Below are positions 47,797-60,535 of a stretch of DNA of 64,000 bases, in pieces. The DNA lies in assembly GCF_024112395.2 (NCBI RefSeq), contig NZ_CP078013.2, positions 2,046,001-2,110,000 of the forward strand. The letters run 5' to 3'. Every line of letters begins with the position of its first letter. The stretch's first letter is position 1. This DNA is from Pseudomonas pergaminensis (GTDB lineage: Bacteria > Pseudomonadota > Gammaproteobacteria > Pseudomonadales > Pseudomonadaceae). The notes below the pieces were generated by a model. It ran no database searches. It was given only the letters and a program-made list of their open reading frames with translations, and was not told where the DNA came from. A program made the translations under genes and the position numbers.

Positions 47797-49209
47797 ATGG
47801 ATTTAGGGATCGATCGACAAGCCCTTGTACCGGTGGTGCAGCAAATCATCAGCGCGGTGGCGCAATGGATTCGCACGAGTGGGGCGAGCCCTGGCACACG
47901 CTTACCGTCCGTTCGCCAGGTGGCCCTTGATAACCTGCTCAGCCAGTCCAGCGTGGTCGAGGCGTTTGAACGATTGGTCGCGCAGGGAGTGCTGGTTTCA
48001 AAACAGGGTTCGGGTTTCAGCGTTGCCCAACCGCCGACGTCGCACGAAGGCCAGTGGTACGAAGGGGCCGAGCAAGACTGGGGAGCCTTCGCCGATAACC
48101 CGTTGGGTGAGCTGAAACTGGGCTGCGGCTGGTTGCCGGATACCTGGCGTGAAAGCGATGACATCAGTTACGCGGTCCGCGAAGTGACCCGTACCGACAC
48201 CGCTGGCCTGTTCAACTACAGCACGCCCTTGGGGCTGCCCGCATTGCGCGAGCAATTGCTCAAGCGCCTGGGCCAGGTCCACATCGCTACCCATCTCGAC
48301 CACATCCTCACCACGGCCGGCGCCAGCCATGCCCAGGACCTGCTGATCCGCACATTGCTCAAGGCCGGCGATTGCGTGGTGGTCGAAACGCCGGGGTACG
48401 GCAACCTTTATCGGCAATTGGCGTTCCACGGCGTGCAACTGCTGCAGGTGCCACGCACTCGCGGTGGCCCGGACATCCCGGCGCTGGAAACGCTGTTGCA
48501 GCAGCATCGGCCCAAGTGCCTGTTCATCAACAGCCTGTACCACAACCCCACCGGCTCCAGCCTGAGCCGCACGGTGGCCGAGCGTTTGCTGGAGCTGGCG
48601 CGCCGCGAAGATTTCCTGATCATCGAAGAGGATGTCTTCGGTGACCTGCAGCACGCCAGTTGCACACGGCTTTCGGCGTTGCCCCATGATGACCGGGTGA
48701 TCTACGTATCGAGTTTTTCCAAGACCCTGAGCAGCGCCTTGCGCGTGGGTTACCTGAGTGCCAGCGCGGCGATCATCGGGCAATTGGCCAGCCTCAAGAC
48801 CTTGACCGGCTTCGGTACCTCGCGATTTGCCGAGGCGGTGGTGGCCACGCTGCTGGCCAACGGCACCTACCGCAAGTGGGTGCAGCGTTTGCGCAAGCGC
48901 CTGAATGCGCAAATGGCTGCCACGTTGCAGGTGCTGGAAGACGAGGAGTGGGAGGTGTTCACTGCTCCGGCCGGCGGGATGTTTGTGTGGGCGCGGCCGG
49001 GGTCGGGGGATCGGTCGCGGTTGCAGGCTTGTGCGCGGCGGCTCGGGGTTTTGTTATCACCGGGGGCGCTGTTCAGTCCAACCCATGAGCCCTGCGACTG
49101 GCTGCGCATTAATGTGGCCTATGCGGCGGATCAACGCGCCTTGGCGTTGTTCCGGGCCATGGGCCCCGCCAGATCGACCTCGACCATTCTGAAAACGACG
49201 AGCGTGTAG
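47797..49209 (+). CDS. MocR-type GntR/aminotransferase transcriptional regulator
   Basis: A 470-residue regulator: N-terminal GntR winged helix (about 10-75, GTRLPSVRQVALDNLLSQSS), a linker, then an aminotransferase fold with the PLP lysine Lys309 in YVSSFSKTLSSALRVGY and the HNPTG motif at 249-253. It binds DNA in response to an amino-acid-like effector or PLP. The target may be the adjacent SDR gene, the chemoreceptor gene downstream, or itself. GTGAGTGG is the only weak ribosome site. Confidence 0.88.
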   Translation: MDLGIDRQALVPVVQQIISAVAQWIRTSGASPGTRLPSVRQVALDNLLSQSSVVEAFERLVAQGVLVSKQGSGFSVAQPPTSHEGQWYEGAEQDWGAFADNPLGELKLGCGWLPDTWRESDDISYAVREVTRTDTAGLFNYSTPLGLPALREQLLKRLGQVHIATHLDHILTTAGASHAQDLLIRTLLKAGDCVVVETPGYGNLYRQLAFHGVQLLQVPRTRGGPDIPALETLLQQHRPKCLFINSLYHNPTGSSLSRTVAERLLELARREDFLIIEEDVFGDLQHASCTRLSALPHDDRVIYVSSFSKTLSSALRVGYLSASAAIIGQLASLKTLTGFGTSRFAEAVVATLLANGTYRKWVQRLRKRLNAQMAATLQVLEDEEWEVFTAPAGGMFVWARPGSGDRSRLQACARRLGVLLSPGALFSPTHEPCDWLRINVAYAADQRALALFRAMGPARSTSTILKTTSV

Positions 49210-54912: not shown

Positions 54913-55704
54913 TCAGTGCGCTGTGAGGGGTTCCTGCCCGGGCATGAAAAAACGCGCAAACAGCTCGGATTGAGACTTGATGTTCAGTTTGTTGTAGAGG
55001 TTGCGACGGTGGACTTTGATGGTCTCTGTCGACAGGTTCAGCTTGCCGGCGATTTCTTTGTTGGAAAAACCGCTCAACAGCAACCTGAGCACATCTTTTT
55101 CCCGCACAGTGATTTGTGCGCCCAATTGCACGATGGCCTCTGACCAAGGCGGCGGCTCGGCCTGGCTTTTTTCTGCATCGCTCTCAAAGCACATGCGTTG
55201 ATGCATCAATGCCATCACCCAGGGCTTGATGATGTCCAGCGTGGTGATCTGCTGCGGGCTGTAGCGCACGTTGCTGCCCAATGAAATGCACAACGTTCTG
55301 TCGGCATCAAGCTGGACGTTGTATTGCACCTCATCCACGCTGACGTACTGGGCAAAATATTGGTGGTAGTACTCGGTGGTCAGGAAGTGCTCCGGCGCAA
55401 TGTCGGACAGGTGAAAAAAACCACTCTGCGGCTGCTCTCGGTTGGCGATGTAAAACGGGTCCAGCAGGTACAGCCCCTTTACATAGCGCTGGGTCAGCGC
55501 GTCCACTTCATCCGCATCGGCGACTTCGGTCATGCTGATGACCCGCACGTGTTGGTCGCTGAAGATCAGCACCACCCAGTTGTCGAGCTGCATGTATTCC
55601 TTTAACACGCGAACCAGCGAGCTCCAGAAGGCCGGGCGGTTGAGCTGCATGATCAGCGTCCCGGCCGACCGATGCCAGGCCAGGTTGTGAAGGTCGAGCG
55701 ACAT
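54913..55704 (-). CDS. LuxR-family transcriptional regulator
   Basis: A 263-residue regulator with a C-terminal LuxR-type helix-turn-helix (about 198-250: ITVREKDVLRLLLSGFSNKE, then STETIKVHRRNLYNKL). The N-terminal 190 residues do not show the acyl-homoserine-lactone pocket residues in the usual order and I do not recognise them. AAAGGGG lies seven bases before the ATG. It is divergent from the solitary binding-protein gene 140 bases away, its most likely target. Confidence 0.88.
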   Translation of the reverse strand: MSLDLHNLAWHRSAGTLIMQLNRPAFWSSLVRVLKEYMQLDNWVVLIFSDQHVRVISMTEVADADEVDALTQRYVKGLYLLDPFYIANREQPQSGFFHLSDIAPEHFLTTEYYHQYFAQYVSVDEVQYNVQLDADRTLCISLGSNVRYSPQQITTLDIIKPWVMALMHQRMCFESDAEKSQAEPPPWSEAIVQLGAQITVREKDVLRLLLSGFSNKEIAGKLNLSTETIKVHRRNLYNKLNIKSQSELFARFFMPGQEPLTAH

Positions 55705-55843: not shown

Positions 55844-56947
55844 ATGAGTCAACCCCATTTGCGCGGCATTTTTATGTCTGTGTTGGTCTGCCTATGTGTC
55901 AGTGCGCCGGTTTCGGCGGCCGAATCACGGGTCAACCTGTACAACTGGTTCGGGCTGATCGCGCCGGAAACGCCGAAGGAATTCGAGCAGAAAACCGGTA
56001 CCCGGATGCACTTGGATGCCTTCGACAGCGCCGAGATCATGCAGAGCAAGGTCATGGCCGGACGCACCGGGTATGACGTCGTCGTCGCCACCTCGAATGT
56101 CTTGCCCAGCCTGATCCAGGCCGGCGTGCTTGCACCGTTGGACCGCTCCCAACTGAGTAATTTCTCGCACATCGATCCCGAAATGCTGGCGCTGCTGTCC
56201 GCCAACGATCCGGGTAACCGGTATGCCGTGCCGTATTTGTGGGGCACCACCGGCATTGGTTATGACGTGGACAAGGTCAAGGCCGCCCTGGGCGACGATG
56301 CCCCGGTGGACAGCTGGGACCTGATCTTCAAGGAAGCGAACATCAGCAAGCTCAAGTCGTGTGGCGTGGCGATGCTCGACTCCCCGAGTGAAATCATTTC
56401 GATCGCCTTGCATTACCTCGGGCTGCCGAGCAACAGCCAGAACCCTGAGGACTACCAGAAAGCCCAGGCGTTGTTGCTGAAGATCCGCCCTTACGTGCTC
56501 TATTTCGATTCATCCAGAACGGATGCTGACTTTGCCGACGGCAATATTTGTGTGGTGGTGGGCTGGGCGAGCGGGGCGCTGACGGCGCAGGCCATCAATG
56601 AAAAAAACAAAACCGGCCGCAAGATCGCCTACAGCCTGCCGCGTGAAGGTGGGCTGGTGTGGTCGGAAAACTTCGTGCTGCTCAAGGATGCGCCCCATGC
56701 CCGGCAAGGCCTGGCGTTTATCAACTACATGCTCGACCCGCACGTCATAGCCAAGAGCTCCAACCACACGCTGTACCCCAACGCCAACAAGGATGCCACC
56801 GAGTTGGTCGAGCAGAAGTTGCGCGACAACCCCTGGATCTATCCGTCCAAAGAGACCATCGCCACCTTGGTGCCCCTTGAGCCGCTGCCCTTGAAGTTGG
56901 AGCGGATCCGCACGCGTGTGTGGACCAAGGTGAAGAGTGGGACGTGA
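55844..56947 (+). CDS. PotF/SpuD-like periplasmic substrate-binding protein
   Basis: A 367-residue exported binding protein: signal peptide to about residue 26 (VLVCLCVSAPVSAAES), then VNLYNWFGLIAPETPKEFEQ, the start seen in polyamine-binding PotF/SpuD/SpuE, and YAVPYLWGTTGIGYDVDKV in the hinge region. It is expected to bind a polyamine or related amine. No permease or ATPase gene lies beside it, so it either serves a transporter elsewhere or acts as a sensor. AAGGA lies about 9 bases before the ATG. Confidence 0.88.
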   Translation: MSQPHLRGIFMSVLVCLCVSAPVSAAESRVNLYNWFGLIAPETPKEFEQKTGTRMHLDAFDSAEIMQSKVMAGRTGYDVVVATSNVLPSLIQAGVLAPLDRSQLSNFSHIDPEMLALLSANDPGNRYAVPYLWGTTGIGYDVDKVKAALGDDAPVDSWDLIFKEANISKLKSCGVAMLDSPSEIISIALHYLGLPSNSQNPEDYQKAQALLLKIRPYVLYFDSSRTDADFADGNICVVVGWASGALTAQAINEKNKTGRKIAYSLPREGGLVWSENFVLLKDAPHARQGLAFINYMLDPHVIAKSSNHTLYPNANKDATELVEQKLRDNPWIYPSKETIATLVPLEPLPLKLERIRTRVWTKVKSGT

Positions 56948-57277: not shown

Positions 57278-57307
57278 ATGCCGATCAGTGATGATCGGCA
57301 TTTTTTT
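57278..57307. terminator. Terminator overlapping the end of the MocR-type gene
   Basis: The stem ATGCCGATCA-GTGA-TGATCGGCAT plus TTTTTT terminates the small orphan gene on the plus strand. The stem also contains the stop and last codons of the minus-strand regulator gene (stop at 57285-57287). Confidence 0.85.
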
Positions 57308-58796
57308 GCGCGTGTGCGTGCGCGTTCGCCGCGTTGGCCAGGCGTAATGTAGCCTCGCGGATCTCGTCCTGGTTGAGTGAGGCGAAGCCCAGGCGCAGCG
57401 CATTTTCTGGCTGGTCCAGCGGCGAAAATTGCCGGCCACTGCGCACGACCAGCCCATGGTCCACGGCGGTTGCCACCATCTGGTCGACGTTTATCTGATC
57501 GTCGAACCGCACCCACAGCGCCAGCCCGCCTTCGGGCTCCCGCACGCTGATCCGCTCACCAAATGCCGCATGCAGGCATGTCTGCAAGGTTTCGCGGCGT
57601 GCACGGTATTCCTTCGATACCCGGCGCAGGTGCTTCTTGAGTTCGCCGTTGTTGATCAGGTCCGCGAGCATCTTCTGCGCCACTGCATCGGCGTCCCCCA
57701 GCATCAATGCAGCGTTGCTGTGCAGGGCTTCAACCACCGGCGCGGGGGCGACCACATAACTGCAGCGAAACGTTGAGCCGAGCGCCTTGGATAACGACCC
57801 GACATAGATCACATGGCGTTGCGAGCGGTCGCTGGCCAAGGGCAGGTAGGGCCGTCCGTTAAAGTGATATTCGTGGTCGTAGTCTTCTTCGATGATGCAG
57901 AAGTCGTGCTGCGCCGCCAATGCCAGCAGCTGTTGCCGCCGTGCTGCGTGCAGGCTCACGGTGGTAGGGAATTGGTGATGCGGCGTCAGATAGATCATCC
58001 GCACGTTATGTTCGCGACACAGGCGGTCGATCTGGTCCGTTCGACAGCCTTCGTCGTCTACGTCCACCGTGACCAGTTGCGCGCCCAGCTTGCGAAAAAT
58101 CTCCCATGCCGGCGGGTAGCTCAGGCGCTCCACCAGTACCACATCGCCTGGCTTGAGCAGCAGGCTGGCGGTCAGGTACAGCGATATCTGGGTGCCTTGG
58201 GTCAGGCAGATATTCTCGGCGCTGACCGTCAGCCCACGGTTATTGCGCAGCATCTCGGCCAGCGCGCAGCGCAGCTCATAGCCGGTGCCTTCACTGCCAT
58301 AGCGCACGGTGTTGGAGGCAAAGCTGTTGCGCAGGGCATTGCGGTAATAGCGATGCAGGACGGCTTGGGGCAGCAAGCGGTGGTCGCTGGTGCCGTTATC
58401 GAAAAACAGCGCCCCCTGCCGATGCTGCAGGGCCGTCACCTGGGCGTTCTGGGTGAAATACGGGGCGTTCGCCTGCGCCAGGATGGGCGGTGCGAAGGAC
58501 TGCTGCGCGCGACTCGGCAATGGCTTGGGCGTCAACTGCGCATTGACGAAGGTCCCGCGACGCGGCTCGCTGACCAGCCAGCCTTTGGTCAGGGCTTCTT
58601 CGTAGGCCAGGATCACGGTCTTGCGGTTGACGTCGAGCAACTGCGCCATTTCCCGCGTGCCGGGCAGCAAGGTGCCGGGCGGCAAACGGCCTTCCACGAT
58701 TGCAGTCACCAGGCCTTCGGCAATCTTGTGGTAGGACGCCTGGCTGCCACTTTCGTCCAGCTTGAGCAGCGGGCGCCATTTTCGCATCTGGACCAT
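57285..58796 (-). CDS. MocR/PdxR-type GntR-aminotransferase regulator
   Basis: A 503-residue regulator: GntR winged helix (about 18-88, LLPGTREMAQLLDVNRKTVI), linker to about 125, and an aminotransferase domain with PLP Lys337 (YVGSLSKALGSTFRCSY) and the TPHHQFPT motif in place of HNPTG, as in PdxR-like MocR proteins. It is divergent, 77 bases apart, from the reductase-M24 fusion gene and is its likely regulator; the gap contains the dyad TCCA-AAAC-TGGA at 58805-58816. EnuR of ectoine catabolism is a related regulator type. Confidence 0.88.
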   Translation of the reverse strand: MVQMRKWRPLLKLDESGSQASYHKIAEGLVTAIVEGRLPPGTLLPGTREMAQLLDVNRKTVILAYEEALTKGWLVSEPRRGTFVNAQLTPKPLPSRAQQSFAPPILAQANAPYFTQNAQVTALQHRQGALFFDNGTSDHRLLPQAVLHRYYRNALRNSFASNTVRYGSEGTGYELRCALAEMLRNNRGLTVSAENICLTQGTQISLYLTASLLLKPGDVVLVERLSYPPAWEIFRKLGAQLVTVDVDDEGCRTDQIDRLCREHNVRMIYLTPHHQFPTTVSLHAARRQQLLALAAQHDFCIIEEDYDHEYHFNGRPYLPLASDRSQRHVIYVGSLSKALGSTFRCSYVVAPAPVVEALHSNAALMLGDADAVAQKMLADLINNGELKKHLRRVSKEYRARRETLQTCLHAAFGERISVREPEGGLALWVRFDDQINVDQMVATAVDHGLVVRSGRQFSPLDQPENALRLGFASLNQDEIREATLRLANAANAHAHAQKNADHH

Positions 58797-58873
58797 CTGA
58801 AGTATCCAAAACTGGAGGTTTTAATGGGCCTATTCTAGCGCAACAATCAAGCCTCACTCACCCCGAGGTTGTT

Positions 58874-60535
58874 ATGAATACACGTCATGTCATCGAACTG
58901 TCCCCCTCGGGGAAAACCTTTGAGGCCGGTGACGAGCTGTTGCTCGATGCGATGCTCGCCAATGGCCTGTCCGTGCCGTTTTCCTGCCGGCGCGGGGCCT
59001 GTGGATCGTGCAAGGTGGTGGTCGCAGAAGGCGAGTACCGGGCCAAGCAGCTGGCGCCAGGTGCCCCCGCGCCGTGCTATCCGTTGGCGGCGAATGAAAT
59101 GCTGTTGTGCCAGAGCCATGCCTGCGGCGACATGCGCCTGGAAATCCCCGGCTGGTCGCTGGACACGCCGGTGCTGATGGTCGAGGCACAGGTCGTGAGC
59201 AAGCGCGCGCTGGCCCCCGACATTGTTGAGCTGGTGGTGATGCCGGATAGGCCATTGGCGGTGCGGACGGGCCAGTACCTCAAGTTCCGACTGGTTGACG
59301 GTGACTCGCGGTGTTTCTCGATCGCCAACCTGCCGGCCGAAGACGATGGGCGCCTGGTCTTCCAGATTCGCCGGGTCAGCGGCGGGCTGTTTTCCGAGGC
59401 CATCCTCGGCGACCTGGAAGCCGGCGATCTGGTGCAACTGGAAGGACCTTTTGGTGCCTGCACCTGGCAGGACACGGACGACAGCCCTGTCGTCCTGTTC
59501 GCCACCGGCACCGGTTATGCGGGCATCAAGCCGATACTGCTGACTGCATTGGCACGCAACATCGAGGTCACGCTGTACTGGGGCGGGGCGCAACCGACGG
59601 ACTTTTATGACCGTGCCTTCCTGGCTGACGCGAGTGCCGAGCATCCGCGATTTTGCTGGCATCCGGTGCTGGCGTCGCAGGGCAGGGTGCAGGAGGTTGC
59701 GTTGAGTCACGGGCATGCCTGGGAGCACGCTCAGGTGTACGCGTGTGGTAACGGCGCAATGATCCGCCAGGCCCGCGAGCAGTGTCTCGACGCAGGTTTG
59801 CCGGCTCACCGGTTTGTCGCCGAGGCCTTTGTGCCGAGTGGGCGCTCCGGCGCGCAAACGCCGTCACCCGCGTTTGACCCGATCTGGGAAAAAGTCGGCC
59901 CGCGCTACTCGTTTGACGGCATGCTGGCGGCCCGTGACCAATCCATCCGCGCCCTGGCGGCGATCGCCAGTCGCCTGAAGGTTGGCATGACCACCGGCGA
60001 AGCCCTCGACATGGCCGCCGAACAACTGCAGGCCATGGGCGCGTCCCACACGTGGCACCCGACGTACATCCGCTTTGGCGACGACACCGTACGCCCACCG
60101 CGCGAAGGCATTGACCGCCAGCGCAGGCTGCGCGCCACCGATATCGTCGTGGTTGACCTGGGCCCGGTGTGGGACGGCTATGAAGGCGACTACGGCGATA
60201 CTTTTGTGTTCGGTGAATCGCCGCTGCACCTGGCATGCAGGACCGCACTGCACGAAGTGTTCGACGAAACTCGCGAAGCCTGGTTGCGCGGCCTCACCGG
60301 TCGCGAACTGTATGACTTTGCCGAACAGAGCGCCGTGGCAAAAGGCTGGAGGCTGGCGCGTAATCTCGCAGGCCATCGCCTTGCGGATTTCCCCCACGCG
60401 TTGTTCGAGAGCAAGGTGCTGGCGGAGCTGGAGATCCCGCCGAGTGAAATGGCCTGGGTCCTGGAAATCCAGCTGTGCCATCCCACGGAACCGGTCGGTG
60501 GTTTTTTCGAGGATATGTTGATGCTGCAGGCCTGA
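58874..60535 (+). CDS. Fusion of 2Fe-2S ferredoxin/FAD-NAD reductase with an M24 metallopeptidase-fold domain
   Basis: A 553-residue protein. Residues 1-90 are a plant-type ferredoxin with Cys38, Cys43, Cys46 and Cys79; about 100-200 is the flavin domain (FSIANLPAEDDGR in place of the usual RxYS); about 205-318 is the NAD domain (FATGTGYAGIKP, YACGNGAMI). Residues 345-553 form an M24 (pita-bread) domain with a plausible full metal set: Asp428 and Asp439, 11 apart as in MetAP, His501, Glu531 and Glu546. One uninterrupted frame, with GAGG five bases before the ATG. M24 proteins include prolidases, creatinase and ectoine hydrolase. Substrate unknown. Confidence 0.87.
   Translation: MNTRHVIELSPSGKTFEAGDELLLDAMLANGLSVPFSCRRGACGSCKVVVAEGEYRAKQLAPGAPAPCYPLAANEMLLCQSHACGDMRLEIPGWSLDTPVLMVEAQVVSKRALAPDIVELVVMPDRPLAVRTGQYLKFRLVDGDSRCFSIANLPAEDDGRLVFQIRRVSGGLFSEAILGDLEAGDLVQLEGPFGACTWQDTDDSPVVLFATGTGYAGIKPILLTALARNIEVTLYWGGAQPTDFYDRAFLADASAEHPRFCWHPVLASQGRVQEVALSHGHAWEHAQVYACGNGAMIRQAREQCLDAGLPAHRFVAEAFVPSGRSGAQTPSPAFDPIWEKVGPRYSFDGMLAARDQSIRALAAIASRLKVGMTTGEALDMAAEQLQAMGASHTWHPTYIRFGDDTVRPPREGIDRQRRLRATDIVVVDLGPVWDGYEGDYGDTFVFGESPLHLACRTALHEVFDETREAWLRGLTGRELYDFAEQSAVAKGWRLARNLAGHRLADFPHALFESKVLAELEIPPSEMAWVLEIQLCHPTEPVGGFFEDMLMLQA

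Follow-up and report, generated by a model that had tools for sequence, protein, structure and literature searches.

Oxygenase reductases with a ferredoxin domain (Fer2) at the N-terminus, such as GcoB and BenC, are separate proteins that serve Rieske, diiron or P450 oxygenases. In M24 metallopeptidases, a residue of the His79 type (E. coli methionine aminopeptidase, MetAP, numbering) has a catalytic role. Proteins of the M24 fold may bind two irons and are not always peptidases; DddP, for example, is an M24-like lyase with binuclear iron (PMC4108388, in part). A ferredoxin reductase and a ferredoxin fused N-terminally to the AlkB hydroxylase make a natural and active protein that is mis-annotated in databases (PMC8918992, in part). 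Characterised MocR-type regulators bind PLP, regulate genes of PLP, GABA and taurine, and commonly lie divergent to the genes under their control (PMC5320631, in part). An earlier reading of the DNA studied here, made from its letters (the sequence-only reading), knew of no characterised pathway that joins NADH-derived electrons and an M24 hydrolase on one chain; in agreement with it, among the matches listed from open-licence PMC texts we found no described system of an NADH reductase and an M24-fold protein, fused or paired.

The window, by which we mean the whole stretch of 64,000 nucleotides of Pseudomonas pergaminensis that was analysed, contains a gene that joins these two parts. The gene at 58874-60535 (+) is a single open frame of 553 codons whose translation has no internal stop, and the locus consists of the following features.

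57285..58796, minus strand: divergent MocR-type regulator with a GntR HTH and an aminotransferase-like (class I/II) domain; conserved partner.
58797..58873, no strand: 77-bp intergenic region with a conserved block CCAAAACTGGAGGTT and a block that is ATGGGCCT here and mostly ATGGTCCT in kin.
58874..60535, plus strand: fusion protein of 553 residues with Fer2 at 8-83, FAD_binding_6 at 108-197, NAD_binding_1 at 209-301 and Peptidase_M24 at 350-549 (Pfam).
58895..59122, plus strand: [2Fe-2S] ferredoxin domain, residues 8-83, with CX4CX2C and Cys79; cysteines invariant in 80 distinct sequences.
59195..59776, plus strand: FAD/NAD-binding reductase core, residues 108-301, from Pfam and invariant motif residues.
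59828..59890, plus strand: linker, residues 319-339, of kept length and poorly conserved sequence; pLDDT below 50 at 318-345.
59921..60520, plus strand: M24 (pita-bread) domain, residues 350-549, with D428, D439, H501, E531, E546 and H508; best fold matches MetAP and prolidase.

Fer2, FAD_binding_6, NAD_binding_1 and Peptidase_M24 all exceeded the Pfam gathering score, in that order; for Peptidase_M24 (PF00557) the score was 69.2 bits against a gathering score of 23. The clean frame and its four domains bear out the sequence-only reading, which had seen a ferredoxin reductase and an M24 domain in one frame. Cys38/43/46/79 as well as Asp428, Asp439, His501, Glu531 and Glu546 lie where that reading had placed them. 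The genome of 6.6 Mb holds one full-length match of the fusion protein, and five further matches cover the reductase part only, at 27-35% identity.

We found the fusion in many other genomes. A scan of species genomes gave at least 79 fusion loci (among the best 80 of 83 matches), and tblastn showed that the full fusion is encoded at no fewer than 82 loci, a set made up of the scan loci, the window's own locus and three loci from a family sample (L001 is the window, and L007 probably represents the same contig as L011). Among the matches listed, identities ranged from 95% to 43%, and the record titles named Pseudomonas, Pantoea, Collimonas, Herbaspirillum, Variovorax, Roseateles, Achromobacter, Comamonas and Paraburkholderia. 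The domain order described in the sequence-only reading therefore recurs across genomes down to 43% identity. A frameshift between two genes, or an assembly artefact, is ruled out by the 80 distinct intact fusion sequences, and since it recurs across many genera, the fusion is neither a chance product nor the result of faulty sequencing. Across all 80, no variation was seen in the four Fe-S cysteines, the five M24 metal ligands, R146, S149, G212-T213-G214 or C291-G292. Mean pairwise identity among the fusions was highest in the M24 domain (0.69), followed by Fer2 (0.65), NAD (0.59) and FAD (0.57). The linker F319-E339 was 20-22 residues long in 75 of the 80 fusions while its sequence drifted. 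The distribution is sporadic, with matches at E 1e-60 in 4 of 198 family-sample genomes, the window's own counted, and the plasmid collection contained no full-length fusion (none of 366 matching records reached 80% query coverage). Pseudomonas sp. K2I15 has a stretch, L088:8001-8480, that matches residues 384-543 only, as well as an intact fusion (L047), as if one site had kept a remnant and another the whole gene. The genes around the L088 stretch were also found beside the P. yamanorum fusion (L043).

The same parts also occur unfused. A search with the M24 domain alone gave matches in 17 of 398 genomes of a phylum sample, three of them fusions by frame length, and in 12 of 300 genomes of the order to which genome G438 belongs. 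At two loci, L140 and L146, a reductase gene and an M24 gene were codirectional with a MocR gene facing away, and with the M24 protein of L146 as a query, matches (among them solo copies) were obtained in 24 of 61 genomes of one family and 3 of 43 of another. When 45 unfused stretches were analysed by tblastn, 17 had MocR, reductase and M24 genes (the split form) and 28 had M24 only (solo M24s); no reductase was found near the M24 gene in any of these 28 stretches, which differ in length (L110 is only 4.5 kb). The 17 split loci are all the full-length matches of at least 60% identity in the two families, the partial match G894 being left out. The reductase gene preceded the M24 gene, with a divergent MocR gene, at all 17, whose M24s form one clade; at L198 the MocR gene lies about 1.6 kb from the reductase gene, not directly adjoining it, and L192 carries an additional, solo copy of M24 at a distance of about 6 kb. 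Over the seven genera of the split loci, only MocR, reductase and M24, together with antisense shadow frames, were common to at least three genera within the stretches.

The split form differs from the fusion in how the reductase is built. The three split reductases tested have the order FAD-NAD-Fer2, whereas the fusion has Fer2-FAD-NAD, and the Fer2 motif is CX5CX2C in 17 of 17 split loci but CX4CX2C in the fusion. Because both the domain order and the ferredoxin type differ, the [2Fe-2S] electron outlet appears to have been kept despite a changed source. A tree of 24 fused, 17 split and 27 solo M24s, built without two truncated solo copies, placed the fused M24s in one clade and the split M24s in another (each 100/99). 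The split clade grouped with four solo M24s (98/96), which implies either two gains of the coupling to a reductase or a single gain followed by loss. The deep part of this tree is unsure, with long branches among the distant solos. A grouping of the reductase cores of both forms had moderate support (82/95, 76% of bootstraps); within it, the split reductases were not resolved as a single clade (51/20). Judging from these comparisons, the coupling of this M24 subfamily to a [2Fe-2S] NADH reductase has either outlasted or come about through changes in domain order, in ferredoxin type and, at the fusion, in regulator lineage. Nothing else speaks as strongly for a joint function of the two parts, and their coupling can be regarded as well supported by sequence comparison.

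The regulator is the only general neighbour of the fusion. By a tblastn check, 81 of 82 fusion loci have a divergent MocR gene no more than 600 bp upstream, the exception being L083. The wider neighbourhood varied by lineage: the next-largest gene families near the fusion were syntenic among close relatives, and the rest were large, common and varied in position. Thus, as to the co-occurring genes that the sequence-only reading had wished to see, the MocR partner is general beside the fusion, and no third enzyme is generally conserved with the module in the gene clusters around the fusion and split loci. The MocR neighbour passed the NCBIfam cut-off for PdxR (344.3 vs 320 bits). Vitamin B6, which this score had brought up as the MocR target, finds no support, as no B6 gene was recognised in the module. 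The gap between the MocR gene and the fusion was 76-81 bp in 55 of 60 loci with a Pseudomonas-type MocR; since this length is kept and the sequence blocks are common to the 16 loci that were aligned, the 77-bp region looks like a candidate shared operator with promoters.

A tree of 6 Pseudomonas-type, 7 Achromobacter-type and 8 split-form MocRs with 25 other MocRs showed two separate lineages beside the fusion. The MocRs of Pseudomonas, Collimonas and Herbaspirillum rhizosphaerae grouped with the split-form MocRs (100/100), and those of Achromobacter, Variovorax, Comamonas and Roseateles noduli sat elsewhere in the tree. The same kind of sensor thus seems to have become attached to the fusion enzyme at least twice. 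A second MocR-type gene (GntR and aminotransferase-like, judged from sequence) lies in the window at 47797-49209 (+), unlinked to the fusion. A gene for a PotF-like putrescine-binding protein adjoins a LuxR-type regulator gene (55844-56947 (+) and 54913-55704 (-), respectively), and these two recur near the fusion at several fluorescens-group loci.

We analysed the metal site of the M24 domain with an aligned profile built from fused and solo M24s. In HMM alignments with M24 chains of solved structure, Asp428, Asp439 and His501 fell on the matching motifs of prolidase and Map1, where the corresponding residues are metal ligands. In the alignment with Map1, His508 met the next His, and the His of the Map1 CHGVP motif had no counterpart. 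Glu531 and Glu546 fall inside the Pfam M24 match, whose end is at position 204 of a profile of 208. It is by homology that the five putative ligands (D, D, H, E, E) would be expected to cluster. The model of the M24 domain alone (pLDDT 82.6, pTM 0.83) had methionine aminopeptidases and prolidases as its best Foldseek matches, and in it residues 499-516, including His501 and His508, were below pLDDT 50. The full-length model (pLDDT 77.7, pTM 0.50) likewise had the loop with His501 below 50; its first part matched oxygenase reductases, and its domain contact is unreliable. The five ligands were also present in the 17 split M24s and in the solo M24s, so that no ligand change divides reductase-coupled from solo M24s; L116, a distant row, is blank at Glu546, the point at which its stretch stops. 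Among the differences nearby is position 436, where 24 of 24 fusions have Y, 16 of 17 split M24s have W and most solos have H or W.

A His79-type histidine was not conserved at positions 403-423 in the fused, split or solo M24s. No single one of these positions holds a His in more than 2 of 24 fusions or 6 of 27 solos, and none of the 17 split M24s has a His at any of them; peptidase activity is therefore not to be assumed. Hydrolysis of prolyl peptides or creatine-like compounds, as a predicted activity, is weakened by the missing conserved residue. The protein also stayed far below the cut-off for type I methionyl aminopeptidase (TIGR00500, 28.6 vs 171.35 bits).

The sequence-only reading had held that the reductase would need an oxygenase partner and that such a partner is absent here. 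Its second half agrees with our results: over about 44-64 kb of the window, the part that was inspected, no oxygenase gene was recognised beside the fusion. The need for a partner allows another reading, in which the lack of a conserved oxygenase makes the M24 domain itself the likely acceptor. Oxygenase neighbours were judged through gene clusters, a partial reading of gene order and a Rieske motif scan of called genes, in which 3 of 83 fusion loci were positive (L042, L079 and L083; the denominator is the 82 others plus L026 or the window, counted by called genes). At the 17 split loci, the scan gave a single match, a 120-residue frame antisense to the M24 gene. The Rieske-motif genes at L042:11934-13109 and L079:13141-14157 lie a few kilobases from the fusions. 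L083:6119-17199, from Paraburkholderia ginsengiterrae, is the only fusion locus without a MocR gene and bears a cluster of aromatic-degradation type with HPPD-like, RidA-like, LigB-type dioxygenase, aspartate-dehydrogenase-like, LigXa-type Rieske oxygenase and Rieske ferredoxin genes. The oxygenase and Rieske ferredoxin are a possible external electron acceptor there, and the lack of MocR makes this locus atypical. Seven related reductases were picked from plasmid hits; of the five that were annotated, three adjoin genes for Rieske or ring-hydroxylating dioxygenases, suggesting that this type of reductase often feeds an oxygen-using enzyme.

A reductase and an M24 protein that are paired in two arrangements without a third conserved enzyme are best fitted by the idea, already raised in the sequence-only reading, that the M24 metal site has been turned to redox chemistry, within which we infer that electrons reach the metal. 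We propose, at about an even chance, a self-contained NADH-driven enzyme under MocR control whose electrons would end at the M24 metal and which would act by redox chemistry on a small amine-type molecule. NADH would reduce FAD, and FAD in turn the [2Fe-2S] cluster, from which single electrons would pass over the short tether to the M24 metal site, probably iron. There the M24 domain would do its redox chemistry, either with oxygen or as a reduction, and the small molecule on which it acts would probably be of amine type. The divergent MocR would control the enzyme, its aminotransferase-like domain being expected to sense the amine via PLP. In other bacteria, the reductase and M24 parts are encoded by separate neighbouring genes. 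Precedents for this reading are the binuclear iron of DddP, the iron dependence of type I MetAPs and the active AlkB fusion. More tentatively, and at somewhat less than an even chance, the pita-bread fold would here have become a terminal acceptor of electrons and so a new class of enzyme, an NADH-dependent metallo-oxygenase (or reductase) whose dinuclear site is rich in carboxylates. It would exist both in self-sufficient, fused form and in two-component form, and would act on amine metabolites or antimetabolites sensed by MocR.

Against the redox reading stands the finding that solo M24s without a nearby reductase are common (28 of 45 unfused stretches) and have the same five ligands, so that the M24 chemistry may be hydrolytic. 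It would be so in a two-step enzyme, the other idea of the sequence-only reading, where the reductase would perform one redox step and the M24 domain would hydrolyse the product, the fusion providing channelling and co-regulation. The intact M24 fold with its five ligands agrees with this, as do the solo M24s of the subfamily that exist without a reductase. A hint of amide or gamma-glutamyl chemistry comes from the gamma-glutamyl-cyclotransferase-like gene directly downstream of the M24 gene in 12 of 45 unfused loci. We consider it unlikely, however, given a reductase that has no recognised substrate domain of its own and is a one-electron [2Fe-2S] carrier in both fused and split versions, no conserved oxygenase to supply the redox step, and a His79-type residue that is not conserved. 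If the reductase fed a separate oxygenase encoded elsewhere, the M24 domain would be an independent hydrolase of the same pathway. Related reductases do sit in Rieske oxygenase operons, the L083 cluster has a LigXa-type Rieske oxygenase with a Rieske ferredoxin, and L042 and L079 have a Rieske-motif gene nearby; yet such genes occur near only 3 of 83 fusion loci in the motif scan, the sole match at the 17 split loci is the antisense frame, and L083 is the lone fusion locus without MocR, all of which makes this arrangement distinctly unlikely.

The electrons could also serve the metal without entering the reaction, the reductase keeping the M24 iron ferrous and the M24 domain being an ordinary Fe(II) hydrolase. 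YfaE is thought to play such an iron-maintenance role for ribonucleotide reductase, and the Fer2 domain weakly matches the YfaE model, below its cut-off (31.5 of 75 bits). Type I MetAPs, moreover, are regarded as iron-dependent (PMC11078913, in part). But genomes G873, G888 and G908 hold a split module together with a solo M24 that has no reductase of its own nearby, which means that the same cells run close kin of the M24 protein without dedicated repair, and we give this explanation little probability. The reading that we prefer remains electron delivery to the M24 site for a redox reaction.

Besides the MocR regulators, the unfused loci give clues to the substrate. In 5 of 17 split loci (L184, L190, L191, L193 and L195) and 7 of 28 solo loci (L110, L111, L112, L139, L143, L199 and L201), the next gene after M24 on its strand is gamma-glutamyl-cyclotransferase/AIG2-like, and PF06094 was confirmed in the three of these genes that were tested. 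No such gene was found among the fusion-locus stretches, nor in the window's own genome in a search run without a positive control. The four solo M24 genes nearest the split clade (L109, L144, L148 and L149) are each beside a divergent DJ-1/PfpI-AraC regulator gene, by position in all four and by domains in the two that were tested; the second-best NCBIfam model for the L109 regulator was the choline-metabolism regulator GbdR, far below cut-off. Taken together, the MocR and DJ-1/AraC regulators and the gamma-glutamyl-cyclotransferase-like genes suggest amines or gamma-glutamyl-type amides as the substrate.

If electrons reach the M24 site, a widespread metallohydrolase fold gains a redox branch, and many genome labels of "M24 family metallopeptidase" need a second look. 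If the M24 domain proves hydrolytic, a conserved pair of NADH reductase and hydrolase beside MocR is a type of pathway that we did not find in open-licence PMC texts. The system is well suited to testing, with a single chain, an NADH readout, a natural two-component version and solo relatives as controls, and the ligand of the adjoining regulator should reveal the class of substrate.

Compared with known systems, the reductase part has the Fer2-FAD-NAD order and the motifs of GcoB (5ogx), carbazole dioxygenase reductase (7c3a), BenC (1krh), T4moF (4wqm, of toluene 4-monooxygenase) and MmoC, which were its best matches in sequence and fold, and it shows the features of that superfamily, namely the four cysteines and the Rx(F/Y)S, GTG and CG motifs. 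Unlike those oxygenase reductases, the Pseudomonas fusion carries the M24 domain behind it on the same chain, and its scores fell below the NCBIfam cut-offs for BenC (102.8/430 bits), MmoC (102.8/500), AntC (89.2/402) and PRK05713 (94.9/338). With the M24 metallopeptidases (methionine aminopeptidase, prolidase, aminopeptidase P), the fusion shares the fold, the five ligands and, in H508, the second conserved His; it differs in lacking a conserved His79-type residue, in being tied to a reductase and in reading GHR..DFPH where Map1 has GHGVGEFFH.

To our knowledge, the M24 fold is not known as an oxygenase. At the metal site of DddP there is an extra Asp, presumably Asp297 in its numbering, and the fusion has Gly430, two residues after the first ligand Asp and invariant in 80 fusions, at a position that would correspond by motif. 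DddP, the DMSP lyase, is likewise M24-like and holds binuclear iron for non-peptidase chemistry (PMC4108388, in part), but has no reductase. The regulator has the same domain layout and divergent arrangement as the MocRs with divergent targets, GabR, PdxR, TauR and EhuR (PMC5320631, in part), and the type of its target enzyme does not appear in the main text of that source, where words beginning with peptidase, aminopeptidase, reductase or oxygenase occur zero times. Also close in design are the AlkB fusions (PMC8918992, in part) and the P450 fusions with reductase and ferredoxin, which, like the fusion described here, carry electron-supply domains on the chain of a catalytic metal domain. Unlike these self-sufficient reductase-oxygenase fusions, it ends in an M24 domain, a fold unrelated to P450, AlkB, Rieske or ferritin-like proteins. 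Both halves belong to known families, and the chemistry of their pairing may be ordinary hydrolysis beside a conventional reductase.
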